A stretch of 64,000 nt of DNA from Alphaproteobacteria bacterium (GTDB taxonomy: Bacteria; Pseudomonadota; Alphaproteobacteria; Sphingomonadales; Sphingomonadaceae): positions 77,512-141,511 of the forward strand of contig JAFANP010000035.1 in NCBI GenBank assembly GCA_019232625.1. The letters run 5' to 3'. Position 1 is the stretch's first letter. Each line of letters starts with the position of its first letter. Both the position numbers and the translations under genes were made by a program. Positions 12,983 through 54,711 of the stretch are shown here, in pieces. The notes beneath the pieces are model-generated. The model made no database searches, was not told the DNA's origin, and saw only the letters and a list, made by a program, of their open reading frames with translations.

Positions 12983-13041
12983 TGGTGCGGACGGCGGGAC
13001 TCGAACCCGCACGCCCCGAGGGGCAGAAGATTTTAAGTCTC
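12983..13041 (-). pseudogene. 3' half of disrupted host tRNA-Leu(UAA), containing attL core and encoded CCA
   Basis: Minus strand GAGACTTAAAATC-TTCTGCCCCTCGGGGCGTGCGGGTTCGAGTCCCGCCGTCCGCACCA; T-arm and 3' acceptor strand match the 5' half at 40909-40949. Confidence 0.92.
13029..13041. repeat. attL core (13-bp direct repeat)
   Basis: GATTTTAAGTCTC, identical to 40909-40921. Confidence 0.9.
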
Positions 13042-13232
13042 TTTGGGAAAAGCTTAAGGTACTGAAAAGTCAGGCATTTTAGGTTGGCTGCTGCGCTAAT
13101 GTGCTAATCAATGTGCTAATCAGCCGGTCGGGAGGCGCAAAGCGCCTCCGCGATCGCCGATCTGTACCAGCCTGATTCGCGGCTGCAAGGTTTATCTGGA
13201 CGGGCGCGCCGGGCTCGGGACAAAGCTGGCGC

Positions 13233-15593: not shown

Positions 15594-16204
15594 ACAACGA
15601 GAACATCGCTGCCCGCAGGGATGAGGTACTGTTCGAGTTTCATCGGCAGTGCCAGCGCCCCACCGCGGAGCAGATCGTGGATTGGACGGAGCGCTACCCC
15701 GAATTCGCGGACGAGATCCGCGAACATGCGGCGGCGCGTCTGGATTGGATCGCGATGGAGCGACTTCCAGCGATGGAGCCGGATGAGGCGCTGATCGCAC
15801 GCGGGCGCAGCCGTGCACTCAATGCGATCCATAACGCGCAGGCGGCGGCGCGCGCGCAGTCGGACGAGGGGGCTGCGACCTTCCAAGCATTGATGCAGGG
15901 TGCCGATACATCTGTACCCGGATTGGCGCGCGAGCTCGATATCGACCGGGGCATTGTGGCGGATATGATGGCGGGACGCATGCTGCCGCCGCTCGGCCGC
16001 CGCTTCATGGACGGATTGACAGGAGCCTTACGTACGAGCGTCGCCGCGATCGAAGCCGCCTTGCACAGAGCAAGCCAGGCACCGCGGCTGGGGCATGCCA
16101 AAGCGACACGCGCGCCGAAAATCATCCAACGATCCTACGCCGATATCGTGCGAAGTAGTGGCATGAGTGACGAACGAAAACGCTATTGGCTGGACAAGGA
16201 TTGA
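15590..16204 (+). CDS. Hypothetical regulator with HTH-like segment
   Basis: VPGLARELDIDRGIVADMMAGRMLPPLGRRFMD; translationally coupled (ATGA overlaps) to both neighbours. Confidence 0.5.
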   Translation: MNNENIAARRDEVLFEFHRQCQRPTAEQIVDWTERYPEFADEIREHAAARLDWIAMERLPAMEPDEALIARGRSRALNAIHNAQAAARAQSDEGAATFQALMQGADTSVPGLARELDIDRGIVADMMAGRMLPPLGRRFMDGLTGALRTSVAAIEAALHRASQAPRLGHAKATRAPKIIQRSYADIVRSSGMSDERKRYWLDKD

Positions 16205-19200
16205 TGGACGCGTGGGCTGACATTCGTCTCGTCGCGCGCGAGACCCATACGCAGGCGCTAGAACATTCCGGCGGCGACCGCACTGCCACAGCGCTGATCG
16301 CGGCCGCGCTCGCGCCGTACGATTTGCAAATTCGCTACTTCGACTCGGGCGAGGTCGTTGACGACGTCGTGCTCGGATTCCTGGAGCGGGAGTCGCTTTT
16401 GGTGAATGTGCGGCGCGGTCAGTCTCCCGCCGACGAGGCCGCCGTGGTGGCGCACGAAATCGGGCATTTCCACCTGCATCTCGATCCGCGCAGCGAGGTC
16501 ACGGCGGTAGCGGAAGGGCTCGGCGGTGATCCGGTCGAAAGCGGCGCGGGCCGGGTGGAGGGCTATTCGGCTCGCGAACGCAAAGAGATTCAGGCCGACA
16601 TCTTCGCCGGCGAATTCCTGTGCCCGACGGACTGGCTCAAAGTCGAGCTGGTGGAGCGCAATCGCAAACCATCCGAGATCGCTCAGGAGCTAGGATTGCC
16701 GCCCTCGATGGTACTGCACCAGACGATCCGGGCGCTGCTGCTGCCGCCGCTGCGGCCGCCGGAGCCGGAAGAAGATACGGCCGCTGTGCTGCTCGATTCC
16801 AGCCAGGACGAGGCCGCCAACTGGAACGCCGGGCCCCTGCTGGTGGAGGCAGGACCCGGAACCGGTAAAACCCGAACGCTGGTGCACCGGATCATGGGAC
16901 TCTTGGAAGAGGGTGCCCTTCCCGGCTCCATTCTGGCGCTGACCTTCTCCAAGAAAGCCGCCGAGGAGATGCGCGAGCGGCTGTCCAAGCGCAACCGCGA
17001 TGCTGCCATCGAAATGTGGGTCGGCACGTTTCACGCCTTCGGCCTGGAGATGGTGACGAAATGGCCGAGCCGGGTGCAGCGTACCGAGAAGGTGCGGATA
17101 TTGGATGAAACCGGCTCGCTCGCGTTGCTCGAGCGCAATCTCGAGCGGCTCCCTTTGCGCCATTACCAGAATCTCTACGAACCCGCCTACGAGCTGGTTC
17201 ATGTCGTCAAGGCGATAGCGCGCTGCAAGGACGAGCTGATCGGCTGGGAGGAGTATTTGACCGAGGCGAAGGCCACGCTAGCGGCGGCGTCGGACGAGGA
17301 GCGGGAGAATGCCGAGAAAGCGGTCGAGATCGGTGAAATCTATCGTATCTATGAGGAAGCGCTTGTCGCCGAGGATGCCGTCGATTTCGGCGATTTGATA
17401 CGCCTCCCGATCCAGCTGCTCGCCGACGAGGAAATTCGCGAAGCCTATCAAAGCCGATTTGAGCATATCCTGGTCGATGAGTACCAAGATGTGAATTATG
17501 CCAGCGCGCAGCTTCTGCGTGCCCTCGCCGGAAGCTGCGAGGATGTCTGGGTCGTCTGCGATCAGCGCCAGTCGATTTACCGGTTCCGAGGCGCCAAGCC
17601 GGAGAACGTCGCGCGTTTCGAGAAGGAGTTCGGCGGCACTCGCCGCTCGCTAGGCCATAATTACCGCTCGGGAGGACCGGTGGTTCGAGCCTTTGCCGAG
17701 TTCTCCCGTCACATGGGCGGCTCGAACGGTGGCGGCACCTGGGATGCCCACCGCGGCGAGGTGGGCGAGATTTCGCTTTCGATCTCGTCAACCGTCGCGG
17801 GAGAGGCCGGGGTCATTCGCGACACGATTGAGGCGTTGCGCACCAAGGGCGTCGCCTATCGCGACCAATGTATCTTGGCGCGCAGCCACCTGACGCTTGC
17901 CCGCATTACCGATACGCTGGAGCGGCTCGGCATACCGTTGCTCTATATGGGCGATCTGTTCGAGCGCGACGAGATCCGCGACCTGCTTTCGCTCGTGGCG
18001 CTCGATGCCGAATTCGGGGGTATCGGGCTGGTGCGGCTGGCGCAGCTGCCGGAATACGGCGCATCGCGGCAGGATGCGGTCGCGCTGCTGGTTTGGGCGC
18101 AGGAACAAAAGCTGACGGTCTTCAACGCGCTTACCCGCACCGACGAAGTCGAAGGACTCTCGCCGGCGGGCCGCGCAGGATTAGCGCGATTGGGCGAACA
18201 GCTGGCGGGGATGGAGCCGGAAACCACGCCCTGGAATTTGCTGACAACCTGGCTTTTCGAGCGCAGCGACTATCTGCGCCCCCTGGTGCTCGCCAACGAC
18301 GCCAAATCCCAGCAACGGCTGATTGCCATCTACCAGCTGCTAAAAGTCTGCGGCGAGCATCTGGCGATGGGCGATACCAGCCGCCGTCGTTTCGTGGAAC
18401 GTGTGCGCAGGATCGAAGCCCTTAACCATGACACCGCCTATCGCGCCGTCGCCTCCGAGGCGAGCGACTTCGACGCAGTGCGGGTGATGACGATCCACGG
18501 CAGCAAGGGGCTGGAGTTCCGCGCAGTGCACCTTCCGGGGCTGGCGACGACCTATATGCCGGCAAACCGACAGTGGGTTCGCTGTCCCCCTCCGCCCGCG
18601 CTAGCCCAGCTCGCTTTGCGGAAGGAAGACCATGACGCCGAGGAAGAATGCCTCTTCTTCGTCGCCATGTCGCGCGCTCGCGACTACCTCTGCCTGAGCC
18701 GCGCCGAGCGTTATACCCAGAAGCGCAATTCCAGCGAGTCGCGCTTTCTCGCCATTGTCGCCCCCCGCTTGCAGCCCAAGCGCAGCGACGGCGAGCTTCC
18801 CCTGCCTGTCACCGAGCCGGTGATGCGGCCGCCCGCGCCTCGTGATTCCTACTCGGAGCGGGAGCTCGACATCTACCTGCGCTGTCCGGCCCGATACGAT
18901 TATGAGGTAATCCACGGGCTGCGCGGGGGCGGCGATGCCTCTGCCTATCTGCGTTTCCATCGCTGCGTGTACCGCACGCTCGGCTGGCTTGAGGCAAGGG
19001 CAACCGAAGGTCGGCCGGCCGACCTTACCGCGGCGCAGGCGGAACTCGCCCGCCAATGGGAAGAGGCGGGTCCGGTCGATCACGGGTTCGAGGCCTATTA
19101 TCGCGCCATAGCCGGGGAGATGGTTGGAGCCATCGCTACGCTTATCCTTGGAGAGCGGGGACGCTATGATCGGTCGGAATGGTCGGTGGAACTTGATGGC

Positions 19201-19545
19201 AAGCACATTACCTTCACACCCGACCGCGTAATCTTGGAAGCGGATGGAACTGTCCGCGTGCAACGGGTCCGAACGGGGCGCAAAACAAAGTCCGAGCACG
19301 AGAATGGCATCTATGCCTTGATTCGGCGAGGCGCCGAGCAGCGCTATCCTGGACGTCCGCTCGTCGTCGAGACTTTCTACCCGGCGACGGGTGAAGCCGT
19401 TCCCGTTTCGCCAGCTAAGAATGACGAGAAGCTGCTCCAGGAATATCGCGACGCGATCGCCGGGATCGAGCGGGGCGCGTTCGCCCCGGAGCCGGACCCC
19501 CGAAAATGTCCCAACTGCCAATGCTACTTCGTCTGCGGCGCGTGA
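16204..19545 (+). CDS. ImmA/IrrE metallopeptidase - UvrD/REP SF1 helicase - Cas4/AddB-like (PD-(D/E)XK fold, Fe-S) fusion
   Basis: HEIGHFHLH (ImmA), EAGPGTGKTRTL Walker A, ILVDEYQDVNYAS Walker B, C-terminal YSERELDIYLRCPARYDYE and CPNCQCYFVC. Confidence 0.88.
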   Translation: MDAWADIRLVARETHTQALEHSGGDRTATALIAAALAPYDLQIRYFDSGEVVDDVVLGFLERESLLVNVRRGQSPADEAAVVAHEIGHFHLHLDPRSEVTAVAEGLGGDPVESGAGRVEGYSARERKEIQADIFAGEFLCPTDWLKVELVERNRKPSEIAQELGLPPSMVLHQTIRALLLPPLRPPEPEEDTAAVLLDSSQDEAANWNAGPLLVEAGPGTGKTRTLVHRIMGLLEEGALPGSILALTFSKKAAEEMRERLSKRNRDAAIEMWVGTFHAFGLEMVTKWPSRVQRTEKVRILDETGSLALLERNLERLPLRHYQNLYEPAYELVHVVKAIARCKDELIGWEEYLTEAKATLAAASDEERENAEKAVEIGEIYRIYEEALVAEDAVDFGDLIRLPIQLLADEEIREAYQSRFEHILVDEYQDVNYASAQLLRALAGSCEDVWVVCDQRQSIYRFRGAKPENVARFEKEFGGTRRSLGHNYRSGGPVVRAFAEFSRHMGGSNGGGTWDAHRGEVGEISLSISSTVAGEAGVIRDTIEALRTKGVAYRDQCILARSHLTLARITDTLERLGIPLLYMGDLFERDEIRDLLSLVALDAEFGGIGLVRLAQLPEYGASRQDAVALLVWAQEQKLTVFNALTRTDEVEGLSPAGRAGLARLGEQLAGMEPETTPWNLLTTWLFERSDYLRPLVLANDAKSQQRLIAIYQLLKVCGEHLAMGDTSRRRFVERVRRIEALNHDTAYRAVASEASDFDAVRVMTIHGSKGLEFRAVHLPGLATTYMPANRQWVRCPPPPALAQLALRKEDHDAEEECLFFVAMSRARDYLCLSRAERYTQKRNSSESRFLAIVAPRLQPKRSDGELPLPVTEPVMRPPAPRDSYSERELDIYLRCPARYDYEVIHGLRGGGDASAYLRFHRCVYRTLGWLEARATEGRPADLTAAQAELARQWEEAGPVDHGFEAYYRAIAGEMVGAIATLILGERGRYDRSEWSVELDGKHITFTPDRVILEADGTVRVQRVRTGRKTKSEHENGIYALIRRGAEQRYPGRPLVVETFYPATGEAVPVSPAKNDEKLLQEYRDAIAGIERGAFAPEPDPRKCPNCQCYFVCGA

Positions 19546-19640: not shown

Positions 19641-20132
19641 ATGATGACCAAGGTTTCCGTGTTTCTCCAGCAGGACGGCAGCGAACAGCTGATCGAGACC
19701 GAACTGCCCGCAACGCTCACCGGAGCTCAGCTCTACGACGCGGTCGCCAAGGCCGGTGCCGAGACGGACGACGCGACGTTCGTCTTCCTCGGCGAGGCGG
19801 ACGAGCCGGTGAAGCGCAAGGGCAAGGACTCGCTGACGCTCGCCGCGGGGGCGCTGGTGCATGTCACCCGCTGCCGCAAGGTGAAGGTGACGGTGCATTT
19901 CCTCAACCGCACCATCGAAGAGCAGTTCGCCCCGGGCGCGCGGGTGCGCAGCGTCAAGGCCTGGGCGGTCGGCAAGATCCCGCTTGAGCCCCAGGACGCC
20001 GCCGAGCACGTGCTGGAGATCTGCGACACGAAGACGCGGCCGGTGACCGACGCGAGCCTCCAGCAGCTGACCGACGGCAAGCGCTGTTCCGTCCGCTTCA
20101 ACCTCGTCCCCGACACGCGGGTCGAGGGGTGA
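19641..20132 (+). CDS. Tandem ubiquitin-like (multiubiquitin-type) protein
   Basis: Two successive Ubl-like units ([10 protein letters not shown]... and [21 protein letters not shown]...), C-terminal Gly (RVEG); next to E2/JAB/E1 genes. Confidence 0.75.
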
Positions 20133-20136
20133 GCCG

Positions 20137-20619
20137 ATGAACGCTCCTTCTCCTCCCGGCAAGCTGCTGCTGGAGCAGGACCTCGCCGCGCCGGAGTTCC
20201 GGCTCGGCGAGGCCGAAGGACGGTGGCGGCGGATTGGATTGAACTGGCCTTACCTGACGATGGCGGTTCGGGCCGCCGAGCGTTCGAACGGGCCGGAAGA
20301 ATTCGGCTTCCGCTTCGAATGTTCCGGCTACCGGCAGTCCCCGGCAACGGCGCGTCCTTGGGACCTAAGCAGCGACGCTCCCCTGCCCGCTTCGCAATGG
20401 CCGGCCGGCAGGAGCATCGTCAAATCGGTGTTCCGGCCGGATTGGAAGTCGGGGACGCTCTACATCCCCTGCGACCGGGTGTCCCTCGAGGGTCACCCGG
20501 ATTGGTACCACCAGCATCCCCACCGGCTCTGGCAGCCGAAGCGCGGGATCATCTGCTACCTGGAACAGATTTATGAGCTTCTCAATCAAAGCGATTATAC
20601 GGGCATTCGCGGCGCCTGA
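20137..20619 (+). CDS. Prokaryotic E2-like protein
   Basis: [36 protein letters not shown]; position between Ubl and JAB genes. Confidence 0.65.
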
Positions 20620-21094
20620 GCATCGGCTCAGCTGCAGCCGCCGCCGCTGGAATCACATCATGGGCGAACTCGCCCGGCGCGGCGAGGGCCGTCACGAGGC
20701 CGGGGTGTTCCTCCTCGGGCATGTCCGGGGCGAGCGGCGGGAAGTGACGTCGGAAATCTATTACGACGAGCTCGATCCGAACGCCTATGCCAGTGGTGTC
20801 TGCATCCTGCACGCGGCGGCCTTCTCGAAGCTGTGGACGATCTGTCGCGAATGGGGGCTGACGGTGGTCGCCGACATTCACACGCATCCGAGCGGGGCCG
20901 GGCAGAGCGAAGCGGATCGCACCAATCCCATGGTGGCGGTCTCGGGGCATATCGGAATCATCGTTCCGAATTATGCGTCCGTCCCGGTGCAGCAGGCGAC
21001 GCTCGGCATCTACGAATACCGTGGCGGCCATCGCTGGTTCGACCGCTCGCCCCGCAACGCGCCGGGCTATCTCTATGTCGGGATGTGGGGCTGA
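20573..21094 (+). CDS. JAB/MPN (JAMM) isopeptidase-like protein
   Basis: EAGVFLLG ... [37 protein letters not shown]. Confidence 0.85.
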
Positions 21095-21097
21095 GCC

Positions 21098-22480
21098 ATG
21101 CGCGCGATCGATCACACGACCCTGCACCGCACCGCGAAATATTTCATGGATAGCGGACGCGCCGAGAGTCCTGAGGAAGCGCTGCGCCTGCTCCAGTCCT
21201 TCGGGCTGGCGATCATGGTGAGCGCCGCGGCGGCGGCAAGCTATGAGGGGCAGGTCGCCCTCCTCACGCTCGTCAACTTGGCGCGGCGCACCTTCCTAGC
21301 CGGTGTCGAAGTGGTGAACCTGCCCGACGTGGCGAGAATCGCGCCGCTCGCCGATGCAGCTACCCTCCAGGGGGCCGTCATCGAGCTGGGCGGCCAGGTC
21401 ACGCAATCACGGCATGGGCAGTGGCCGCTGGCGGTCATCGGTGACGATTCGGCTTTCCCGGCCACCGGGACCGGCTGGCGCCTGGTCTGGGAGGGCTGGC
21501 GCGCCGGGGTGGTGCCGTTGCGCGAGAAGCCCCTCCCCTTTATGTCGCCTGCGATGGAGTTGGCACCCGCCATGGCGGCCGCCGTCTGCGCGGCGGAGCT
21601 GTTCGCCTTTCATGCCGGCAATCATCCCTTGGCCGGTAAGCGCCGTGCCGGGCTCTCGCTTTGGCAGCCGGGCGCCGATTGGACGACGGCGGCTGCGGAC
21701 GAGCCCGCACTGGCCTATCTTCCTTCGCGCCTCTGGCTGATCGGGCTGGGGAACCTCGGACAAGCCTACAGCTGGCTGCTGGCCTGCCTGCGTTACGAGG
21801 ATCCGAGTCAGGTCGAGCTAGTGCTTCAGGACTTCGATCGCCTGGCGGAATCGAACGACAGCACATCCATGCTCGCCTGCCTTGATGCTATCGGTAAAAT
21901 GAAGACTCGCTGGGTCGCCGAATGGCTGGAGCGGCGCGGCTTCCACACGGCACTCGAAGAGCGGCGGTTCGGTCTCTGGACGCAGCGGCAGGAATGGGAG
22001 CCGCCCGTCGCACTATGCGGCGTCGATAACGGCCTCGCCCGCGCCTCGCTTGAGAAGGCCGGGTTCGAGCTCGTGGTCGAATCGGGCCTCGGGGCCGGGC
22101 CGCAAGGGTTCCGCAATTTCTCCCTCCACAGCTTTCCGAGCTCGCGGCGCGCCGAGCAGATTTGGTCGGGAACGCAGGGCACGCACGCGCCCGACGTATC
22201 GAGCATGCCCGCCTACGCGGGGCTTCGAAAGCGCGGTATGGACCAGTGCGGCTTGGCGCAGCTGGCGTCCCGCACGGTGGGGGTCCCGTTCGTCGGCCTG
22301 ATCGCGGGCGGCTTCGTTATTGCGGAGCTTCTACGCCGGCTCCATGGCGGCCAGGCATACGGAGTGATTGCAGGGTCTGCTGCGTCCCTCAGCGACATCG
22401 AGGCGTCGGCCATCGAAGTAGAGCCGTACGGATATGGCTATGCGACCGCCGAGAGCCTGGACCAAGGAGAAAAAGGATGA
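21098..22480 (+). CDS. ThiF/E1-like adenylyltransferase
   Basis: LWLIGLGNLGQAYSWLL nucleotide-binding motif, VLQDFDRLAESNDSTSML, Cys in GMDQCGLAQLASRTVGVPFVG. Confidence 0.8.
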   Translation: MRAIDHTTLHRTAKYFMDSGRAESPEEALRLLQSFGLAIMVSAAAAASYEGQVALLTLVNLARRTFLAGVEVVNLPDVARIAPLADAATLQGAVIELGGQVTQSRHGQWPLAVIGDDSAFPATGTGWRLVWEGWRAGVVPLREKPLPFMSPAMELAPAMAAAVCAAELFAFHAGNHPLAGKRRAGLSLWQPGADWTTAAADEPALAYLPSRLWLIGLGNLGQAYSWLLACLRYEDPSQVELVLQDFDRLAESNDSTSMLACLDAIGKMKTRWVAEWLERRGFHTALEERRFGLWTQRQEWEPPVALCGVDNGLARASLEKAGFELVVESGLGAGPQGFRNFSLHSFPSSRRAEQIWSGTQGTHAPDVSSMPAYAGLRKRGMDQCGLAQLASRTVGVPFVGLIAGGFVIAELLRRLHGGQAYGVIAGSAASLSDIEASAIEVEPYGYGYATAESLDQGEKG

Positions 22481-27889: not shown

Positions 27890-28819
27890 TTGATCGTAAC
27901 CGAGGCCGCGGCGGCTTATGTGAGCCGCTTTACATCGACGCGTGACCCATCCGAGCACACAGTCCGGGCATATCGATCCGATCTCCGAAACTACTCGGAT
28001 TTTGTGGCAGCCCGCGGACTTTGCCCCCAACGAGAGGATACCGTGCTGGCGTACGCGCGCTATCTGACCGCTGACCGGGCCGCCGCTCCTCGTACGCTGC
28101 GCCGTCGAATGGCCTGCCTGCGGGGGTTCTACAAGGATCTGGTCCGCACGGGCGTGATTGAGCGCTCACCATTTGCGCAGTTGGAGATGCAGCTGCCGCG
28201 CGCGCGGTCGCTGCCTCGCGGGATTACTCGGACGGATGCGGCGCGGCTGGCGGACCGCGCCTGGGCTGTCTGCTCGACCCGCGCGAGCCGAGAATCGCAG
28301 CGATTTGCCATCGCGGTACTGGTGTTGCTGGCGACCGGCATTCGCGTCGGCGAGCTCGTCCAACTGCGGCCCTGCGACTATGACGCAGACAGCGGTGCGC
28401 TGCTCGTCCGTGGCAAGGGTCGTAAGGAACGGCGCGTCTTCATCGTCGACGATCGGCTGCGCCGGCTGCTGGCCCGGCTTGCTGACCTGGCTGGCGCCGC
28501 AACGCTGCTCGGACCCGGCGGCGGTCCCTGGTCCACCCAGGCCGTCCGGCGCAGCCTGCGCAGCTTCGCGACCGGGATAGGACTCTCAACGCCGGTCACG
28601 CCGCACATGCTACGGCATACTTGCGCCACGCTGTTGCTCGAAGATGGCGTGGACTTACGATTTCTGCAGCGGCTCCTTGGCCACGAGAACATCGCGACCA
28701 CTGCGATTTACGCGCATGTCGGCGATATGGGCCTCAAGCGCGCATTGGAAGAAGCGCGGCTGCTGGCGACCTTGACGCTCGCCACGACGAGAAATCAGTC
28801 GGCGGCTAAGAGGCGGTGA
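27890..28819 (+). CDS. XerC/D-like tyrosine recombinase
   Basis: ATGIRVGELVQL, TPHMLRHTCATLLLEDGVDLRFLQRLLGHENIATTAIYAHV. Confidence 0.92.
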   Translation: MIVTEAAAAYVSRFTSTRDPSEHTVRAYRSDLRNYSDFVAARGLCPQREDTVLAYARYLTADRAAAPRTLRRRMACLRGFYKDLVRTGVIERSPFAQLEMQLPRARSLPRGITRTDAARLADRAWAVCSTRASRESQRFAIAVLVLLATGIRVGELVQLRPCDYDADSGALLVRGKGRKERRVFIVDDRLRRLLARLADLAGAATLLGPGGGPWSTQAVRRSLRSFATGIGLSTPVTPHMLRHTCATLLLEDGVDLRFLQRLLGHENIATTAIYAHVGDMGLKRALEEARLLATLTLATTRNQSAAKRR

Positions 28820-39234: not shown

Positions 39235-39546
39235 TGGTGCGGGCGGGGGGACTCGAACCCCCACAGGCCTTTCGGCCCTACGGATTTTCGTACCAGCTAC
39301 GGCTTTCGCCGCCGCCCGGCGAGCCGGGCGTTTGTGGTCTGGACTATCCCTTCACCATGCCCCGAGGGAAAGCCGGGGGTTAGGTGCTGCCCGTCTAGTC
39401 TCTACACCTTCCCGTCGCCGGGCTTGGCTCGGGATTCCCATCTGACAGGGTTCCCCGAATTTGAGCAGTTCTGCATCCCCGGTTTCCCGGGGAGCACTCA
39501 AGGCCTGGCCTAAGTCCGTTGCGTCTACCAATTTCGCCACGCCCGC
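39235..39546 (-). tRNA. tRNA-Leu(UAA), intron-containing, CCA encoded (exons 39512-39546 and 39235-39288)
   Basis: Exons join to GCGGGCGTGGCGAAATTGGTAGACGCAACGGACTT+AAAATCCGTAGGGCCGAAAGGCCTGTGGGGGTTCGAGTCCCCCCGCCCGCACCA; 7-bp acceptor, 5-bp anticodon stem, anticodon TAA. Confidence 0.95.
39289..39511 (-). ncRNA. Group I intron (tRNA-Leu(UAA) type, 223 nt) between anticodon U34 and A35
   Basis: Conserved core blocks CTCAAATTCGGGGAACCC, AATCCCGAGCCAAG, GTAGAGACTAGACGGGCAG, AAGGGATAGTCCAGACC; terminal omega-G; U at 5' splice site with candidate P1 ACUU/GAGU. Confidence 0.93.
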
Positions 39547-39624: not shown

Positions 39625-40797
39625 CTATTGCAGGCTTGGCTGCGTACGGCGGCCGGGGCGAGCCTTCCGCACATTGATCGCGGCCGCGTCCAGCGTGTTC
39701 TTGATGTGCGAGGCGTAATAGGTCTCGATCATCTCGACGCTGGTGCGGCAGTTTTTGGCGATCTGGTAGATGTCGGCCCCTTCCATCAGGCGGAAGCAGA
39801 TATAGGTGTGGCGCAGGCTGTAGAAGGTGCGCGGCTGGCCCTCGCGGTCTTTCTTCAAGCCGAGCTCGGTGAGCACGTCGTTGAACAGCTCGCGCTGAAG
39901 GTTTGGGAAGAGCCGATTGGTCGGCTGACCCTTGTTGCGTTCGCGCAGGCGGCGGAAGGGCATCACGGCGCCGGGCATGCTCTTGCAGTAGCCGACGCCG
40001 CGCTTGCCGCGGACCTCGATGACTAAGATGCGTTCGCGCGTCGCTGCATCGGTTTCGATGGCGACGTCTCGGTATTCGAGGCGCAGGGCCTCGTCGGGCC
40101 GAAGGCCGGTGTTCACCATGAACAGGATGAAGTCGTGCAGGTTTTCGCACGCCGTGCGCCAGCGCTCCTTCTTCGGGTGCTTGGCGCGTTCCCGAGTCGC
40201 CTCGTACAGTTTTTTGTACTCGGCCGGGGAGAACCAGGCGCGGTGCGAGATTTTGCCGTTGCTCTTATAGGGGGTCGAAAGGTCCGGCAGGCTGGGCAGC
40301 CAGCCATGCCGATTCGCGGTCTTGAGGATCTGGCGTAGGCAGACGATTTCCTGATGGAGCGTGCTGCGGGCGGGCGGCTCTCCGCGACGGCCGTTCTTCA
40401 TCGGGTGGATGCGGTAATCCTGGATCAAGCCGGGGGTGATATCCGACAACACGGTATCGCCGAAGAAGGGGTTGAGGTGGCTCGTCACCCGCCTGCGGTG
40501 GCCGGTAACGTAGATCGGGCTGCGCTGGCCTTGGGTAATGACCTCGAACTCGTCCAGGAAGCGCTCGGCTGCCTCCTTGAAGCGCTTGCCCTCCTTGAGG
40601 GCGCCGGAGCGGTATTTGCCGAGAAGCCCGAGATACCAGTCCGTCGCCACGTCCTTGGCGCGGGCCAGGCTCTCCTCCCGCGTGGTCGTCCGATGCTGCT
40701 TGCCGCCAAACGTGCAAGAGCACTGCCCGTGCGGCGTGCTGGGCCGTTTGTAGAGTTGGACCTTGCCGTCCAACAGTTTGTGCCGGGTGCTGTCCAC
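39625..40797 (-). CDS. Tyrosine recombinase (phage-type integrase) of the element
   Basis: NTGLRPDEALRLEYRD, YSLRHTYICFRLMEGADIYQIAKNCRTSVEMIETYYASHI; immediately inside right att. Confidence 0.95.
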   Translation of the reverse strand: MDSTRHKLLDGKVQLYKRPSTPHGQCSCTFGGKQHRTTTREESLARAKDVATDWYLGLLGKYRSGALKEGKRFKEAAERFLDEFEVITQGQRSPIYVTGHRRRVTSHLNPFFGDTVLSDITPGLIQDYRIHPMKNGRRGEPPARSTLHQEIVCLRQILKTANRHGWLPSLPDLSTPYKSNGKISHRAWFSPAEYKKLYEATRERAKHPKKERWRTACENLHDFILFMVNTGLRPDEALRLEYRDVAIETDAATRERILVIEVRGKRGVGYCKSMPGAVMPFRRLRERNKGQPTNRLFPNLQRELFNDVLTELGLKKDREGQPRTFYSLRHTYICFRLMEGADIYQIAKNCRTSVEMIETYYASHIKNTLDAAAINVRKARPGRRTQPSLQ

Positions 40798-40908
40798 GGT
40801 GCCACCAACGCAAAATGTGCTAACAATGTGCTAGCGATTTACCTTGCCGATAGTAGCGGAATGGACTGAAATTGCAAGGTTTTTAGTTGTTGTTGGTTGT
40901 TTTTATTG

Positions 40909-40921
40909 GATTTTAAGTCTC
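40909..40921. repeat. attR core (13-bp direct repeat)
   Basis: GATTTTAAGTCTC identical to 13029-13041. Confidence 0.9.
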
Positions 40922-40949
40922 CGGCGTCTACCGGTTTCGCCACGTCCGC
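40909..40949 (-). pseudogene. 5' half of disrupted host tRNA-Leu(UAA)
   Basis: Minus strand GCGGACGTGGCGAAACCGGTAGACGCCGGAGACTTAAAATC; acceptor GCGGACG pairs with CGTCCGC of the left fragment. Confidence 0.92.
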
Positions 40950-45662: not shown

Positions 45663-48023
45663 CTAGACGAAGTTCGCCGTGCCGAGGGTGCCGAGGCCGC
45701 CCGTGAACTCGATCAGATAGTCCGCCCCGGCCGCGTAGGCGCCGTCGCCGTCGGCGTCGACGACCAGGAAGACGTGGCCGGCAAGATCGCCGGCGTCGGG
45801 CCTGAACAGCAGCGCGCCGTGCGCCTCGAGCGTGCCGTCCACCGCCGCGGCGAGGCCCGCGTCGAGGCTCGCGGCGTCGAGCGCGCCGCCGACGACGACG
45901 CCGTTCCAGGCGGCGACCGTCCCCGGCAGGTCGATGCGGTCCGCGCCCGCCTCGAAGGCGGCGATGACGTCGTGCGCGGCCCCGGTCGAATCGCCGGGGC
46001 CATCATAGGCGAAGACGTCGAGCCCGTAGCCGCCGTTCATCGTGTCGGCCCCGGCGCCGCCGGTGAGGACGTCGTTGCCGCCGCCGCCGTAGAGCGTGTC
46101 GTCGCCCGCCCCGCCGGAGACTCGGTCGTCGCCGTTCAGCGCGTAGATCTGGTCGTTGCCGGCGCCGCCGGAGACGACGTCGTTCCGGATGCCGGTGACG
46201 AGCAGGTCGTCGCCCGCGCCCGAGCGTATGTCGAACGCGCCGTCGGTTTCGAAATAGCCGAGGAAGGTCAGCGCCTCGTTGGCGACGAGGGAGGTGGCGA
46301 CCACCGCCAGGACCTGCCCGGCGGCCACGTTGGCGTCGGCCAGGGTAAGGTTGTAGCCGTGCGGGTTGAAGCGGTCGCCGCCGAGCAGCACCAGGGTTTC
46401 GACATGGGTCAGCGACGCGGCCTCGAGGCTGATCCCGAAGTCGTAATTGCCGTTCAGCGCCAGCGTGTCCGCCCCGGCGCCGCCGTCGACCCGATCGTTG
46501 AAGCGGAAGGTAGAGCCGAAATAGATATAGTCGTTGCCGCCGCCGCCGCTCGCCGTGTCGATGCCGCCATGGTCCATGACGATGAGGTCGTTGCCCGGGC
46601 CCATCGTCACGACATTGTCTAGCGAATTGTCGCGGACCGCCTGGTCGCCGCTCGCGAGCCCGGTCAGGTTCTCGATATTGGCCGGGATCGAGTAGAGCAG
46701 CATGTCGCGGCGGCTGCCGAGCGTCGTTCGCACCTCGTCGGTGCCGAAGCCGATCCCCTCGATCGCCTGATCGCCCCAGTCGTCGACATAATAGACGTCG
46801 TTGCCGAGGCCCCCGGTCATCACGTCGGCGCCGCCGCGCCCGTCGATCAGGTCGTTGCCCGCGCCCCCGTCGAGGACGTTGACCCCATCATTGCCCTTGA
46901 GGATGTCGTTGCCGATCGAGCCGATCACCGCCTCGAAGCCGGTGATCGTGTCGAAGCCGCCGGCGAGCGTGTCCTGGACGGTGGTGAGGGCGAGATCGAT
47001 CGCCACCCCCGCCACGCCGACCGAATAGCCGCGCGCCGCGAAGGTGAGCGTGTCGTAGCCGTCGCCGCCGTCGACGATGTCGTCGCCGAGGCCCGGGTCG
47101 ACCAGGTCGTCGCCGCCGCCGGCGTGGATGACGTCGTTGCCGCCCAGGCTGCGGATGGTGTCGCCGCCGTCGCCGCCGGTGATCGTGTCGGCGGCATTGC
47201 CGGTGCTGACGACGAGCGTCTCGAAGCCGGTATAGTCGATCCGCGAGGCGCCCTGCGCGAACCATCCGGGGCCGCTCGTCACCGGCACGGCCGCGCCGTA
47301 ATTGACCACGAGCGTGTCGGTGCCGCGGCCGCCGTCGGCCGTGTCGACGCCTGCGTAGGTCGTGAACAGGTCGTTGCCGTCGCCGAGCCAGACGTGGTCG
47401 GAGGCGAATACCCAGGTGGTGATGATCGTGTCGTTGCCCGAGCCGGTGCGGAAGTCCGCCAGCGCCTCGAAGTCGACGAAGCGGGTGCCGGGGCCGAGAT
47501 TGGTATAGTCGTTCTGGAGGTTGACGCCGATCCCGTAGGTGCGGTCGGAAAGGTCGGCGGCGATCGAGTCGAGCCCGTCGCCGCCATAAGCGTAGAAGGC
47601 GCCCTTGCCGACGTCGACATAATCGTCCCCGCCTCCCGTCGTGACGAAATCATATTCGTCGCCGAGCACGATCCGGTCGGCGCCGTCGCCGGTGTTGATG
47701 GTGAACGCCTCCACCCCGTCGAACGAGACGCTGCGGTCGGCGGCGGAGAACCGCCCGTCGGCGGCGACGGCGGTGACGTCGCCCGCGTCCGTCCAATCGA
47801 CCCGCAGCGTGTCGTGCCCGTCGCCGCCGTGGACGAAGGCGTCGCCCGCCGCCGCCGCGACCAGCAGGTCGTCGCCTGCTCCGCCGTCGAGCGTGTCGCC
47901 CGCCCCGGCCGTCAGCGTGTCGTCGCCGCCCAAGCCGGAGATCAGCTCGGGGTCGACGGTGCCGGAGAGCGTGTCGGCGCCGTCGCCGCCGGTGATGGTC
48001 AGCGCATATTGGGGATCGCTCAT
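45663..48023 (-). CDS. RTX / hemolysin-type calcium-binding repeat protein
   Basis: Many GGxGxDxLx repeats (LDGGAGNDLIDGRGGADVMTGGLGNDVYYVDD). Confidence 0.92.
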   Translation of the reverse strand: MSDPQYALTITGGDGADTLSGTVDPELISGLGGDDTLTAGAGDTLDGGAGDDLLVAAAAGDAFVHGGDGHDTLRVDWTDAGDVTAVAADGRFSAADRSVSFDGVEAFTINTGDGADRIVLGDEYDFVTTGGGDDYVDVGKGAFYAYGGDGLDSIAADLSDRTYGIGVNLQNDYTNLGPGTRFVDFEALADFRTGSGNDTIITTWVFASDHVWLGDGNDLFTTYAGVDTADGGRGTDTLVVNYGAAVPVTSGPGWFAQGASRIDYTGFETLVVSTGNAADTITGGDGGDTIRSLGGNDVIHAGGGDDLVDPGLGDDIVDGGDGYDTLTFAARGYSVGVAGVAIDLALTTVQDTLAGGFDTITGFEAVIGSIGNDILKGNDGVNVLDGGAGNDLIDGRGGADVMTGGLGNDVYYVDDWGDQAIEGIGFGTDEVRTTLGSRRDMLLYSIPANIENLTGLASGDQAVRDNSLDNVVTMGPGNDLIVMDHGGIDTASGGGGNDYIYFGSTFRFNDRVDGGAGADTLALNGNYDFGISLEAASLTHVETLVLLGGDRFNPHGYNLTLADANVAAGQVLAVVATSLVANEALTFLGYFETDGAFDIRSGAGDDLLVTGIRNDVVSGGAGNDQIYALNGDDRVSGGAGDDTLYGGGGNDVLTGGAGADTMNGGYGLDVFAYDGPGDSTGAAHDVIAAFEAGADRIDLPGTVAAWNGVVVGGALDAASLDAGLAAAVDGTLEAHGALLFRPDAGDLAGHVFLVVDADGDGAYAAGADYLIEFTGGLGTLGTANFV

Positions 48024-50224: not shown

Positions 50225-52381
50225 ATGCGCAAAGCCGCCGCCTTCCTCCTCCTGCCGCTCGCCGGCTGCGCGACGAACGCCGCACCGCACGGGGCCGCGC
50301 CCGCGCACCGCGCCTCCATCGTCTACCCGGCGGCGGAGCGCGGGCCGGTGGTCGAGGAGCAGTTCGGCGTGAAGGTGGCCGATCCCTATCGCTGGCTCGA
50401 GGACGACGTGCGCGAGAGCCAGCGGGTGCGGCAGTGGGTCGCCGAGCAGAACGCGCTGACCCAGTCCTTCCTGGCGACCCTGCCGTCGCGCTCCGCCTTC
50501 CAGCAGCGCATGCGCGAGCTCTTCTCCTACGAGCGATTCACGGCGCCGGAGAAGAAGGGCGGCCGCTATTTCTACACCCGCAACACCGGCCTTCAGAACC
50601 AGAACGTGCTCTACGTGCGCGACCGGCTCGAAGGCGCGCCGCGGCTCTTGATCGACCCGAACGGCTGGTCGGCCGACGGCGCGACGGCGCTCGCGGAATG
50701 GTCGCCCTCGGAGGACGGCAGGAAGCTCCTCTACTCGGTCCAGGAGGGCGGCACCGACTGGCGCATCGTCCGCGTGCTCGACGTCGACACCGGCAGGCTG
50801 CTGCCGGACGAGGTCAAGTGGGTCAAATATTCCAATCTCGACTGGGCGAAGGACGGCTCGGGCTTCTATTATTCGCGCTTCGCCGCGCCCAAGGCGGGGC
50901 AGGAATATCAGTCGACGACCACCGGCCAGCAGGTCTGGTTCCACCGCCTCGGCACCGGCCAGGCCCAGGACAGGCTGGTCTTCGAGCAGCCGGACCGGCC
51001 GACGCTCGGCAACACGGCGGAGGTGTCGGACGACGGCCGCTGGCTGATCGTCAGCTCGTCCGAAGGGACGGACGCGCGCTACGAGGTGACGTTGATCGAC
51101 CTCGCTTCCCCCGGGTCGGCGCCGCGGCGCTTCATCACCGGCGTCGACAACGACTGGCGTTATCTCGGCAACGAGGGCACCACCTTCTACTGGGTGACCG
51201 ACCGCGGCGCTCCGCGCCTGCGCGTCGTCGCCACCGACATCGACCGGCCGGTGGCGGAAGCGCGGGAGATCGTCGCCGAGGACGCCGCGACGCTGGACGA
51301 CGCCTCGATCGTCGGCGGCAAGCTGGTGGTCAGCTACCTGGTCGACGCCAAGACCGAGGTCAGGACCTACGGGCTCGACGGCAGGCCGGTGGGGAAGGTG
51401 ACTCTCCCCGGCATCGGTTCGGCGGCAGGCTTCAAGGGGGATCGCGGGGATCCGGAGACCTTCTTCACCTTCACGAGCTTCAACTACCCGACGACCGTCT
51501 ACCGCTACGACGCCGCGACGGGCCAGGCGACGCCCTGGGCGCAGCCGCGAGTCGCCTTCAGCCCAGCCGACTTCAAGGTCGAGCAGCGTTTCTACCGCTC
51601 GAAGGACGGGACCCGGATCCCGCTGTTCCTGGTCTATCGCAAGGACCTCGACCTTCGCCGCCGCCACCCGACCCTGCTCTACGGCTACGGCGGCTTCAAC
51701 GCGGCGATGACTCCGTCCTTCTCCTCGACCAACCTCGCCTGGATCGAGCGCGGCGGGGTCTATGCAATGGCGAACCTGCGCGGCGGCAGCGAATATGGCT
51801 CCGCCTGGCACGATTCCGGGCGGCTGGCGAAGAAGCAGAACGTGTTCGACGACTTCATCGCGGCGGGCGAGTATCTGATCGGCCAGGGGATCACGTCGAA
51901 GAAGCAGCTCGCCATCTACGGCCGCTCCAACGGCGGCCTGCTGATCGGCGCGGTCGTCAACCAGCGGCCGGACCTGTTCGCGGCGGCGCTGCCGGCCGTC
52001 GGCGTCATGGACATGCTGCGCTTCAACCGCTTCACCGCCGGGCGCTACTGGGTCGACGATTACGGCTATCCGGACCGCGAGGCGGACTTCCGCACGCTGC
52101 TCGCCTACTCGCCCTACCACAACATCCGCGCCGGCGTGCACTACCCGCCGACGCTCGCGACCACGGCCGACACCGACGACCGGGTCGTTCCGGGGCACAG
52201 CTTCAAATATACCGCCGCCCTCCAGAATGCCGACCCGAACGGCGCGCCGCACCTCATCCGGATCGAGACTCGCGCCGGCCACGGATCGGGCAAGCCGACC
52301 GAGAAGATCATCGAGGAATATGCCGACATGTGGGCGTTCATCGCCCACTATACCGGCCTGGAGGCGTCGGGAGGCCGCTGA
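50225..52381 (+). CDS. Prolyl oligopeptidase family (S9) serine peptidase, lipoprotein signal
   Basis: LPLAGCATN lipobox; IYGRSNGGLLIGAVVNQRPDLF nucleophile motif. Confidence 0.93.
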   Translation: MRKAAAFLLLPLAGCATNAAPHGAAPAHRASIVYPAAERGPVVEEQFGVKVADPYRWLEDDVRESQRVRQWVAEQNALTQSFLATLPSRSAFQQRMRELFSYERFTAPEKKGGRYFYTRNTGLQNQNVLYVRDRLEGAPRLLIDPNGWSADGATALAEWSPSEDGRKLLYSVQEGGTDWRIVRVLDVDTGRLLPDEVKWVKYSNLDWAKDGSGFYYSRFAAPKAGQEYQSTTTGQQVWFHRLGTGQAQDRLVFEQPDRPTLGNTAEVSDDGRWLIVSSSEGTDARYEVTLIDLASPGSAPRRFITGVDNDWRYLGNEGTTFYWVTDRGAPRLRVVATDIDRPVAEAREIVAEDAATLDDASIVGGKLVVSYLVDAKTEVRTYGLDGRPVGKVTLPGIGSAAGFKGDRGDPETFFTFTSFNYPTTVYRYDAATGQATPWAQPRVAFSPADFKVEQRFYRSKDGTRIPLFLVYRKDLDLRRRHPTLLYGYGGFNAAMTPSFSSTNLAWIERGGVYAMANLRGGSEYGSAWHDSGRLAKKQNVFDDFIAAGEYLIGQGITSKKQLAIYGRSNGGLLIGAVVNQRPDLFAAALPAVGVMDMLRFNRFTAGRYWVDDYGYPDREADFRTLLAYSPYHNIRAGVHYPPTLATTADTDDRVVPGHSFKYTAALQNADPNGAPHLIRIETRAGHGSGKPTEKIIEEYADMWAFIAHYTGLEASGGR

Positions 52382-52485
52382 CCGCCCCGCCTTGACGGGC
52401 CACCCGCCCCCTCTAGGCTGACGCCGGCCTTGGGGGAGGCGCGCATTCGAGTCGCTCGGCTCCCCAGTCCAGCAGGGGAAACGAC

Positions 52486-54711
52486 ATGGCGATCATCAAC
52501 GGCACTCCCGGCGACGACTTCCTGAGCGGGACGCCGAGCGCGGACACGATCAACGGGCTGGGCGGCAACGACCTCGTCAATGCCGGCGCGGGCGACGACT
52601 CCGTCGACGGCGGCGACGGCCACGACAATCTGCGCGGCGAGGACGGCAATGACAGCCTGTCGGGCGGCAATGGCGACGATTACCTGCGCGGCGGCCTCGG
52701 CAACGACCTGCTCGACGGCGGCGCCGGCTGGGACCGCGCCGCCTTCTTCACCGCGCCGGGCGGCATCGCCGTCGACCTGCGCATCCAGGGCGTCGCCCAG
52801 AATACCGGCATGGGCATGGATACGCTGGTCGGCATCGAGCATGCGTCCGGCACGGAGTTCGCCGACGTCATCACCGGCGACGACGGCCCCAACTGGCTGT
52901 GGGGCGAGAATGGCGACGACACGATCAGCGCCAATGGCGGAGACGACCTCGTAGAGGTCGGCCCCGGCAACGTCGTCGCCGACGGCGGCGCCGGCAACGA
53001 CGGCTTCTCGGTGTGGGCGAACGGGGCGGCGCTGGCCGGCGTCAGCGTGTCGCTGCTGCTCCAGGGCGGCGCCCAGGCGACCGGCATCGGCACGATGACG
53101 ATCAGCGGCTTCGAGAACCTCTCCGGGTCGCTCGGCAACGACACGCTCACCGGCGACGGCGCGGCCAACCTCCTCGCCGGCGACCAGGGCAACGACCATC
53201 TGAGCGGCGGCGCCGGCAACGACATACTCTACGGCGACGGCCGGATCATCGTCGACACGCACGGCACCGGCCTCTCCGGTCCGATCGCCACCTATGCGGA
53301 CGTCACGGCGATCGACCCGGCGCTGGCGGACGGCGACGACGTGCTCGAGGGCGGCGACGGCGACGACCTTCTGAACGGGGGCGGGGGCTCGGACACGGCG
53401 AGCTATGCGACGGCGTCGGGCGCCGTGCAGGTCTTCCTCGGCGCCGGCGGCGGCAGCGCCAGCGGCGCGGCCGGCGAGGACACGTTGATCAGCATCGAGA
53501 ACGTCACCGGCTCCGGCTATGACGACCTCATCCGCGGCGACGCCAATGCCAACGTCCTCGACGGCGGCGCGGGGCACGACTTCATGCGCGGCCTGGGCGG
53601 CAACGACGTGATCACCGGCGGGACCGGCGACGACTATCTCGACGGCGGCCTCGGCGACGACCTTCTCGACGGCGGCGCCGGCTGGGACCGCGCCTCCTAC
53701 GCCGTGAGCGCGACGGGCGGCGTGACCGTCAACCTTGCCCTCTCGGGCCCGCAGGCGACGGGGCAAGGCACCGACACGCTGGTCGGAATCGAGCATGTCT
53801 CCGGGACGATCTTCAACGACGTGCTCACCGGCGACGGCGGCGACAACTGGATCTGGGGCGGCTCCAACGGCTCGGGCGTGACCGGCAACGACACCCTCTC
53901 GGGCGGAGGCGGCAACGACCTCGTCGAGGTCGGGCCCGGCACCCACCTCCTCTCGGGCGGCGCCGGCACCGACACGCTGTCGCTGTGGGGCAACGACGTC
54001 GACATCTCGGCCGCCGGAGTCACCGTCTCGCTCGCCCTCCAGGGGGCGCCGCAGGACACCGAGCAGGGCATGATGAACCTGTCCGGCTTCGAGAATCTCT
54101 CCGGCTCCAAATATGCCGACGTGCTGACCGGCGATTCCGGGGCCAATCTGCTCGCCGGCGACCAGGGCAACGACCTGCTCAGCGGCGGCGACGGCGACGA
54201 CGTCCTCTACGGCGACGGCCGGGTCACGGCGGACACCCACGACACGGGCGGGTCGGGGCCGATCGTCACCTATGCGGACGTGACCCTCGTCGATCCGACG
54301 CTGGTCGCCGGCAACGACACGTTGGTGGGCGGCAAGGGCAACGACACGCTCAACGGCGGCGGCGGCGACGACCTGCTCACCGGCAGCCAGGGGGAGGACC
54401 GGTTCGTCTTCGGCCCCGCTTCCGGCCACGACCACGTCACCGACTTCGCCAAGAAGGACACGATCGCCATCCTCGGAGTCGCGGGGGTGGACGACTTCTC
54501 CGACCTCACCATCGTCAGCGTCGGCGGCAGCGCGGTGATCAGCTGGGGGACGGGCGACACGGTGACTCTCGACGGCTACAAGGCGAGCAAGCTCTCCGCG
54601 GCGGACTTCAGCTTTGGACCGGCGCCGGCGGCGGCGCACTCGGCCTTCGCCTTCGAGGGCCACGGCGCCGATGCTCATGCGGCGGCGCAGGCGATGACGT
54701 GGAACCCCTGA
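52486..54711 (+). CDS. RTX / hemolysin-type calcium-binding repeat protein
   Basis: Multiple GGxGNDxLxGG repeats, terminal RTX-like FVFGPASGHDHVTDFAKKDTIAILG. Confidence 0.92.
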   Translation: MAIINGTPGDDFLSGTPSADTINGLGGNDLVNAGAGDDSVDGGDGHDNLRGEDGNDSLSGGNGDDYLRGGLGNDLLDGGAGWDRAAFFTAPGGIAVDLRIQGVAQNTGMGMDTLVGIEHASGTEFADVITGDDGPNWLWGENGDDTISANGGDDLVEVGPGNVVADGGAGNDGFSVWANGAALAGVSVSLLLQGGAQATGIGTMTISGFENLSGSLGNDTLTGDGAANLLAGDQGNDHLSGGAGNDILYGDGRIIVDTHGTGLSGPIATYADVTAIDPALADGDDVLEGGDGDDLLNGGGGSDTASYATASGAVQVFLGAGGGSASGAAGEDTLISIENVTGSGYDDLIRGDANANVLDGGAGHDFMRGLGGNDVITGGTGDDYLDGGLGDDLLDGGAGWDRASYAVSATGGVTVNLALSGPQATGQGTDTLVGIEHVSGTIFNDVLTGDGGDNWIWGGSNGSGVTGNDTLSGGGGNDLVEVGPGTHLLSGGAGTDTLSLWGNDVDISAAGVTVSLALQGAPQDTEQGMMNLSGFENLSGSKYADVLTGDSGANLLAGDQGNDLLSGGDGDDVLYGDGRVTADTHDTGGSGPIVTYADVTLVDPTLVAGNDTLVGGKGNDTLNGGGGDDLLTGSQGEDRFVFGPASGHDHVTDFAKKDTIAILGVAGVDDFSDLTIVSVGGSAVISWGTGDTVTLDGYKASKLSAADFSFGPAPAAAHSAFAFEGHGADAHAAAQAMTWNP

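Follow-up and report, generated by a model that had tools for sequence, protein, structure and literature searches.

A replacement tRNA-Leu(UAA) on an alphaproteobacterial integrative island is split by a group I intron that may conceal it from the island's own integrase

Replacement of a disrupted tRNA by an integrating element and interruption of bacterial tRNA genes by group I introns are both already known. According to the report on tRNA-dependent lysogeny (Guerrero-Bustamante and Hatfull 2024; PMC10865867), the mycobacteriophages Fionnbharth, LeBron, and Gaia replace the tRNA that they disrupt, and the requirement for that replacement was shown. Similarly, Sinorhizobium meliloti prophages located in tRNA-Leu(UAG) inactivate this leucine tRNA and bring along a cognate one of foreign origin (PMC11476347), and group I introns have been described in bacterial tRNAs (PMC8450103; PMC4476775). 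Here, we analyze a stretch of 64,000 nt (the window) from contig JAFANP010000035.1 of assembly GCA_019232625.1 (Alphaproteobacteria bacterium, Sphingomonadaceae), in which an integrative island, inserted into the chromosomal tRNA-Leu(UAA) gene, carries an intron-bearing tRNA-Leu(UAA) of its own next to a tyrosine integrase. The central observation, made across relatives of this integrase, is that the presence of the intron is coupled to the identity of the attachment (att) core within the carried tRNA.

The elements of the locus on which the argument depends are positioned in the window as follows:

40909 to 40949, minus strand: chromosomal tRNA-Leu(UAA), disrupted: 5' half with att core (sequence)
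40909 to 40921, minus strand: att core GAGACTTAAAATC, integrase end (sequence)
39625 to 40797, minus strand: tyrosine integrase, 390 amino acids (PF00589, E = 8.6e-7)
39512 to 39546, minus strand: exon 1 of the carried tRNA-Leu(UAA), 35 nt, last base U34 (ARAGORN with introns)
39289 to 39511, minus strand: group I intron of 223 nt at U34/A35, with its terminal G (omega-G) at 39289 (ARAGORN, RF00028, covariation)
39235 to 39288, minus strand: exon 2 of the carried tRNA-Leu(UAA), CCA encoded (ARAGORN with introns)
13029 to 13041, minus strand: att core GAGACTTAAAATC, far end (sequence)
12983 to 13041, minus strand: chromosomal tRNA-Leu(UAA), disrupted: 3' half with CCA and att core (sequence)
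13029 to 40921, no strand: island from core to core, about 27.9 kb, lower in G+C than its flanks

The chromosomal gene is split in the anticodon loop (5' half at 40949-40909, 3' half at 13041-12983), which is spanned by the GAGACTTAAAATC stretch included in both halves, and it is not rebuilt at either junction. When joined by script, the halves yield an 87-nt tRNA-Leu(UAA), identical at 86 of 87 positions to the intact gene that occupies this site in a genome of the same genus; in most same-genus genomes recovered, the gene is intact there, with an IHF/HU-like gene and rpsA (both identified by eye) as its neighbors. Together, the junctions and empty sites show, at the level of sequence, an integrative island with a tyrosine integrase recombining in the anticodon loop of tRNA-Leu(UAA). 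Inward from the att core follow the integrase, in the middle, and then the intron-bearing tRNA. An earlier note on this DNA had described the latter as a tRNA-Leu(UAA) that encodes its CCA end and in which 223 nt with a terminal G separate U34 from A35, and the coordinates given there proved exact: ARAGORN, with introns allowed, reports tRNA-Leu(taa) i(36,223) at 39546-39235 on the minus strand, and the spliced 89-mer folds as tRNA-Leu(UAA). The splitting of the att core by the intron was not seen in that note. In this island, attP (the att site of the element) and attB (that of the host) have a stretch of 13 bp in common; the match between attP and the carried exons would be 12 bp if these were contiguous, but with the intron in place the two exon ends match over only 6 and 7 bp.

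The association of such an integrase with an intron-bearing tRNA-Leu, which the earlier note had raised on the basis of the window, turned out to recur. From 318 tblastn matches to the integrase in one genome collection, 80 were kept; they were joined by 80 metagenome loci, the window itself, one further genome of its genus, and one viral contig to give a set of 163 loci, many of them metagenome assembled and thus of uncertain stated phylum. The integrase family is found mostly in Alphaproteobacteria and, judging by record titles, in other phyla. In the recurring layout, the integrase is closely preceded by the 5' half of a host tRNA and closely followed by a complete tRNA. A following tRNA of this kind was found at 138 loci, with a median gap of 103 nt, and at 127 loci it was located within 250 nt. 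Among the 127 Leu(UAA) or Leu(CAA) carriers with both sides readable, the isotype of the carried tRNA equaled that of the disrupted gene in 124, and one of the three mismatches was a misread host side. Most UAA carriers have an intron and most CAA carriers do not, and one relative (locus L050) carries a tRNA-Tyr. Where ARAGORN called intron-bearing Ser(gga), Phe(gaa), or the like, the labels were rejected, these genes being tRNA-Leu(UAA) with misplaced splice points.

Several loci stand out. Four of them (L051, L056, L144, and L178) carry tRNA-Leu(UAG), with the att core reversed (CCTAAA) relative to the integrase, and L109 lacks a downstream tRNA, an intact tRNA-Met being present on the upstream side of the integrase in its stead. 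L047 carries a Leu(CAA) but has CTTAAAA at its host junction, possibly an overlap mismatch or a target switch, and in L082 exon 1 of the carried intron-bearing gene does not differ from the host 5' half, as would result from sequence exchange with the host gene.

The core of the carried tRNA (tRNA positions 30 to 38, exons joined) was then compared with that of the host junction. It was identical to the host core in 71 of 72 intron carriers, against 5 of 55 intronless carriers (Fisher p = 2e-28). In the intron carriers, the exon core is split by the intron in the DNA; the 50 differing intronless carriers deviate at tRNA positions 30 to 32. Locus L091, with host core GACTTAAAATC, falls in the class in which the core differs. 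The possibility that the intron merely tracks the UAA anticodon fails on the exceptional carriers: the core was kept in 2/2 CAA carriers with an intron, versus 5/53 intronless CAA carriers (p = 0.014), and was lost in 2/2 intronless UAA carriers whose host side could be read. Neither are the carried CAA tRNAs ordinary ones, as a comparison with 150 natural genes made clear. Whereas GACTC is present in 118 of 150 natural alphaproteobacterial tRNA-Leu(CAA) genes, it is present in only 5 of 55 carried intronless tRNAs (p = 3.5e-20), and the variants GTCTC, GGCTC, and CACTC seen in the latter are almost absent from the natural tRNA-Leu(CAA) sample. Among natural tRNA-Leu(UAA) genes, 104 of 106 contain GACTT, leaving few natural variants to recruit, a scarcity that may explain the use of introns by UAA carriers.

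Finally, on a FastTree phylogeny of 159 integrase sequences, intron state changed 16 times and core state 15 times; 9 independent contrasts could be made on supported branches, of which about 7 (6 to 8) ran as predicted and none in the opposite direction (median p = 0.016). In these sequence comparisons, the coupling of intron presence and core identity is thus shown.

We consider it likely that the intron shields the replacement tRNA by making the gene invisible to the island's own integrase, intronless relatives relying on base changes instead. A replacement tRNA whose anticodon stem-loop nearly equals the att site would itself be an attB. Recombination between a core-intact, intronless gene and the island att site, some 1.4 kb apart in the same orientation, would excise the integrase gene, and the sole tRNA-Leu(UAA) of the cell, were its core intact, could fall to a related element. 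A group I intron within the core would split the att sequence at the DNA level and so hide the gene from the integrase, while its removal from the RNA would still yield a normal tRNA; intronless relatives would escape by their changes at positions 30 to 32. That the replacement tRNA must not be an attB, a constraint met either by base changes or by a group I intron, is the best explanation that we can offer for the observed pattern. With somewhat less assurance, we also think it probable that a selfish ribozyme has been recruited as a DNA-level disguise against the island's own and related integrases, and that intron and base change are two recurrent solutions to a self-targeting problem that is general among gene-replacing elements and apparent in mycobacteriophages as well. 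In Fionnbharth and LeBron, the carried tRNA-Lys(UUU) has G or C at position 31, where the attP core has A, an independent hint that replacement tRNAs generally must not be att sites.

The shielding role has to be weighed against an account without it, in which integration is tRNA dependent as described but the captured tRNA-Leu(UAA) just happened to bear an intron, a neutral self-splicing passenger. Capture would have been easy, as introns of the window-intron family occur in 41 of 401 alphaproteobacterial genomes, in tRNA-Leu(UAA), Leu(CAA), Arg(CCU), and others, mostly without this integrase nearby. This frequency does not bear out the statement in the earlier note that such introns are uncommon in proteobacteria. 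For 8 of 11 chromosomal intron-bearing tRNA-Leu(UAA) genes examined, no integrase of this type was present within 1.5 kb, so that chromosomes may be where islands acquired the intron gene or where they left it behind. Moreover, nearly all intron carriers are UAA carriers. However, a neutral passenger predicts neither the loss of the core in 50 of 55 intronless carriers, set against its retention in 118 of 150 natural genes, nor the core-intact CAA carriers with an intron, nor the repeated coupled changes on the integrase tree, and we regard it as possible but doubtful. Family introns were also noted at loci L228 to L257, in tRNA Arg(CCU) and Leu(CAA) genes and, as judged by eye, in Lys-like and Thr-like genes.

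Several further points weigh against shielding. Five intronless CAA carriers (L072, L084, L085, L089, and L164) keep the core, as do the tRNA-Tyr carrier L050 and the intronless UAA carrier L175 (L175 and L147 being without a readable host side), so that avoidance of the core, with these and perhaps L175 and L147 as exceptions, is not absolute. The intron and the UAA anticodon are nearly confounded; the two-by-two counts take related loci as separate, and the tree test that guards against this draws on about 9 independent contrasts from a FastTree phylogeny. For CAA carriers alone, matches between carried and host cores are, by our estimate, about as frequent as under random pairing within the set, and the CAA signal is accordingly a shift away from the natural pool. 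The occurrence of same-family introns in chromosomal tRNAs without an integrase nearby counts on this side too.

A different role for the intron, chiefly that of guarding the tRNA precursor or tuning its expression (e.g., against anticodon nucleases or as a splicing switch), seems improbable to us. Its location in the anticodon loop and the defense genes on the island make a conflict with nucleases conceivable, but the anticodon loop of the mature tRNA is normal and the pattern among carriers follows the att core rather than features of the mature tRNA.

As for the intron itself, the carried tRNA was missed by ARAGORN in its default mode, and Rfam at gathering thresholds gave no match to the carried tRNA or intron. 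For the group I assignment made in the earlier note, the Rfam group I intron model RF00028 matched with 37.3 bits (E = 2.4e-7), which falls short of its curated cutoff of 50, and the assignment was supported by covariation. To 55 aligned homologous genes, mutually less than about 90% identical, we applied a handwritten model comprising P1, P2, P3, P4, P5, P6, P6a, P7, P8, P8a, P9, the P3/P7 pseudoknot, and the tRNA stems. In total, 94.4% of cells were paired, versus 84.0% in shuffled and 32 to 46% in slid alignments, a score somewhat favored by the derivation of the model from the window sequence; the double-sided changes, in contrast, are clear, at 385 versus 113 in shuffled alignments (reached in 0/500), with 44 pairs changed on both sides versus 23.6. 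The U.G pair of P1 at the 5' splice site (U35.G48) is present in 55/55 homologues, P3 has 100% of its cells paired with double changes in 4 of 6 pairs, and the P3-P4-P6-P7-P8 core with its P3/P7 pseudoknot is backed by covariation; together with this splice-site pair and the terminal G of the window intron, these features mark a group I intron, and the covariation speaks against a chance likeness. The principal helices, all supported by covariation, are as follows:

39387 to 39468, minus strand: intron helix P3 (39468-39463 with 39392-39387), enclosing P4 to P6
39342 to 39400, minus strand: intron helix P7, the guanosine-site helix (39400-39396 with 39346-39342)
39386-39383 with 39356-39353, minus strand: intron helix P8, inside P7

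The 223-nt intron would thus be expected to self-splice to a working tRNA. Its position, U34/A35 of tRNA-Leu(UAA), is also the insertion site of the cyanobacterial group I intron.

The carried gene almost certainly replaces the destroyed chromosomal tRNA-Leu(UAA), as the earlier note had proposed. In the 66-contig assembly (3.6 Mb, 99.99% complete), a second intact tRNA-Leu(UAA) was sought and none was found, the split gene and the intron-bearing one being the only UAA genes, and UUA codons are present in several open reading frames (ORFs) of the window, that of the integrase among them. On genomic grounds, the carried tRNA would thus serve as the functional replacement. It is very unlikely indeed that the carried gene is dispensable, with the host tRNA rebuilt elsewhere or a spare present: a gap between contigs could hide a tRNA gene, but the other leucine tRNAs among the 43 tRNAs of the assembly are CAG, CAA, UAG, and GAG only, no att end rebuilds the gene, and genome G016 has the same arrangement with only a disrupted 5' half. 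The earlier note had gone further and inferred an addiction to the island. This holds insofar as dependence would oppose deletion or decay, but not excision, since precise excision restores the host gene. In genome G019 (L222), a disrupted 5' half is followed about 230 bp further on by an intron tRNA without an integrase, G209 (L258/L261) is similar, and in G013 (L223) the intron tRNA stands alone at the site; a pattern search found no intact intronless tRNA-Leu(UAA) in G019, G013, or G016. G019, G209, and G013 are apparently decayed islands that have kept the intron tRNA and lost the integrase, and G019 and G209 fit a dependence that acts against deletion and decay.

The remainder of the island contains the following recognizable features:

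40814 to 40834, minus strand: arm-type repeat pair TTAGCACATT / CTAGCACATT, integrase end (as many in 0/100 shuffles)
13098 to 13119, minus strand: arm-type repeat pair TTAGCACATT, far end (sequence)
16186 to 19545, plus strand: UvrD-type helicase with IrrE-like and PD-(D/E)XK domains, cargo
19641 to 20132, plus strand: BilA homologue, cargo (E = 2.6e-45)
20137 to 20619, plus strand: BilB homologue, cargo (E = 4.1e-62)
20573 to 21094, plus strand: BilC homologue (JAB-like), cargo (E = 4e-65)
21098 to 22480, plus strand: BilD homologue, cargo (E = 6.2e-168)

The TTAGCACATT repeat pairs are situated just within both island ends, a placement as for arm-type integrase sites. A complete BilABCD cassette (ISG15-like conjugation defense) occupies 19641-22480, and a second, XerC/D-like tyrosine recombinase at 27890-28819 lies close to genes for a CDP-alcohol phosphatidyltransferase and a spermidine synthase homologue, a region that is possibly a nested element. 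A scan of the larger ORFs revealed no phage structural families, and the best match of the integrase among 50,697 phage records reached only about 29% identity; a prophage is thus unsupported. Elsewhere in the window, long runs of 27-nt repeats at 45663-48023 and 52348-54711 encode, as judged by eye, glycine/aspartate-rich (RTX-like) proteins, and a 45-bp repeat is present in three tandem copies at 1068-1201.

If the shielding role is real, bacterial tRNA group I introns, usually viewed as neutral passengers, would have a selected one, and any element that replaces the tRNA that it destroys would be predicted to follow the rule that the replacement must not be an att site. Additionally, the occurrence of tRNA-replacing integration is widened beyond the phages of Actinobacteria to include a large island family of Alphaproteobacteria and, judging by record titles, of further phyla. 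Such genes escape tRNA finders run with default settings, and islands of this kind may therefore lie behind some of the losses of tRNA-Leu(UAA) that have been reported; Caulobacter K31, for one, was stated to be without the TAA leucine tRNA of NA1000 (PMC4221894), possibly because an intron-bearing gene was missed by annotation. Relative to the literature searched, what is new is that intron carriers keep an att core split by the intron and intronless carriers lose the core; no link between tRNA replacement and tRNA group I introns, nor any proposal of an att shield, was found in this literature, which was largely open access.

Compared with known systems, the locus combines familiar parts in an unfamiliar way. 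Work by Castillo and colleagues from 2018 reportedly found that integrative and conjugative elements of Acidithiobacillus recognize the tRNA anticodon stem-loop, which is likewise the integrase target here; those elements are not known to carry an intron-bearing replacement tRNA. Besides the insertion site given above, the window intron has a small size and a group I core in common with the cyanobacterial and plastid tRNA-Leu(UAA) introns (PMC4476775); it differs in being carried by a mobile element, in Alphaproteobacteria, within the att core of that very element. The S. meliloti prophages (PMC11476347) likewise belong to Alphaproteobacteria, put a leucine tRNA out of action, and supply the cognate one, but they are phages, and no intron is mentioned for them. 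Closest is tRNA-dependent lysogeny as presented in the mycobacteriophage report (PMC10865867), with a tyrosine integrase, attB in an essential tRNA gene, a common core of 8 to 17 bp (13 bp here), a tRNA that is not rebuilt, and a carried cognate tRNA whose requirement was shown for the phages; no discussion of core avoidance by the carried tRNA was found there. Whereas those are actinobacterial phages with intronless tRNAs, we are dealing here, mostly in Alphaproteobacteria, with an island without recognized phage structural genes, in which tRNA-Leu(UAA) is cut and the replacement, beside the integrase, is split by a group I intron. With its PF00589 integrase, a 13-bp core in the anticodon stem-loop, empty sites in relatives, a functional tRNA rebuilt at neither junction, and a carried tRNA of the disrupted isotype that has no other counterpart in the host assembly, the element follows the same integration logic as tRNA-dependent lysogeny, but by what was found in its larger ORFs and its distant integrase, it does so as an island rather than as a temperate phage.
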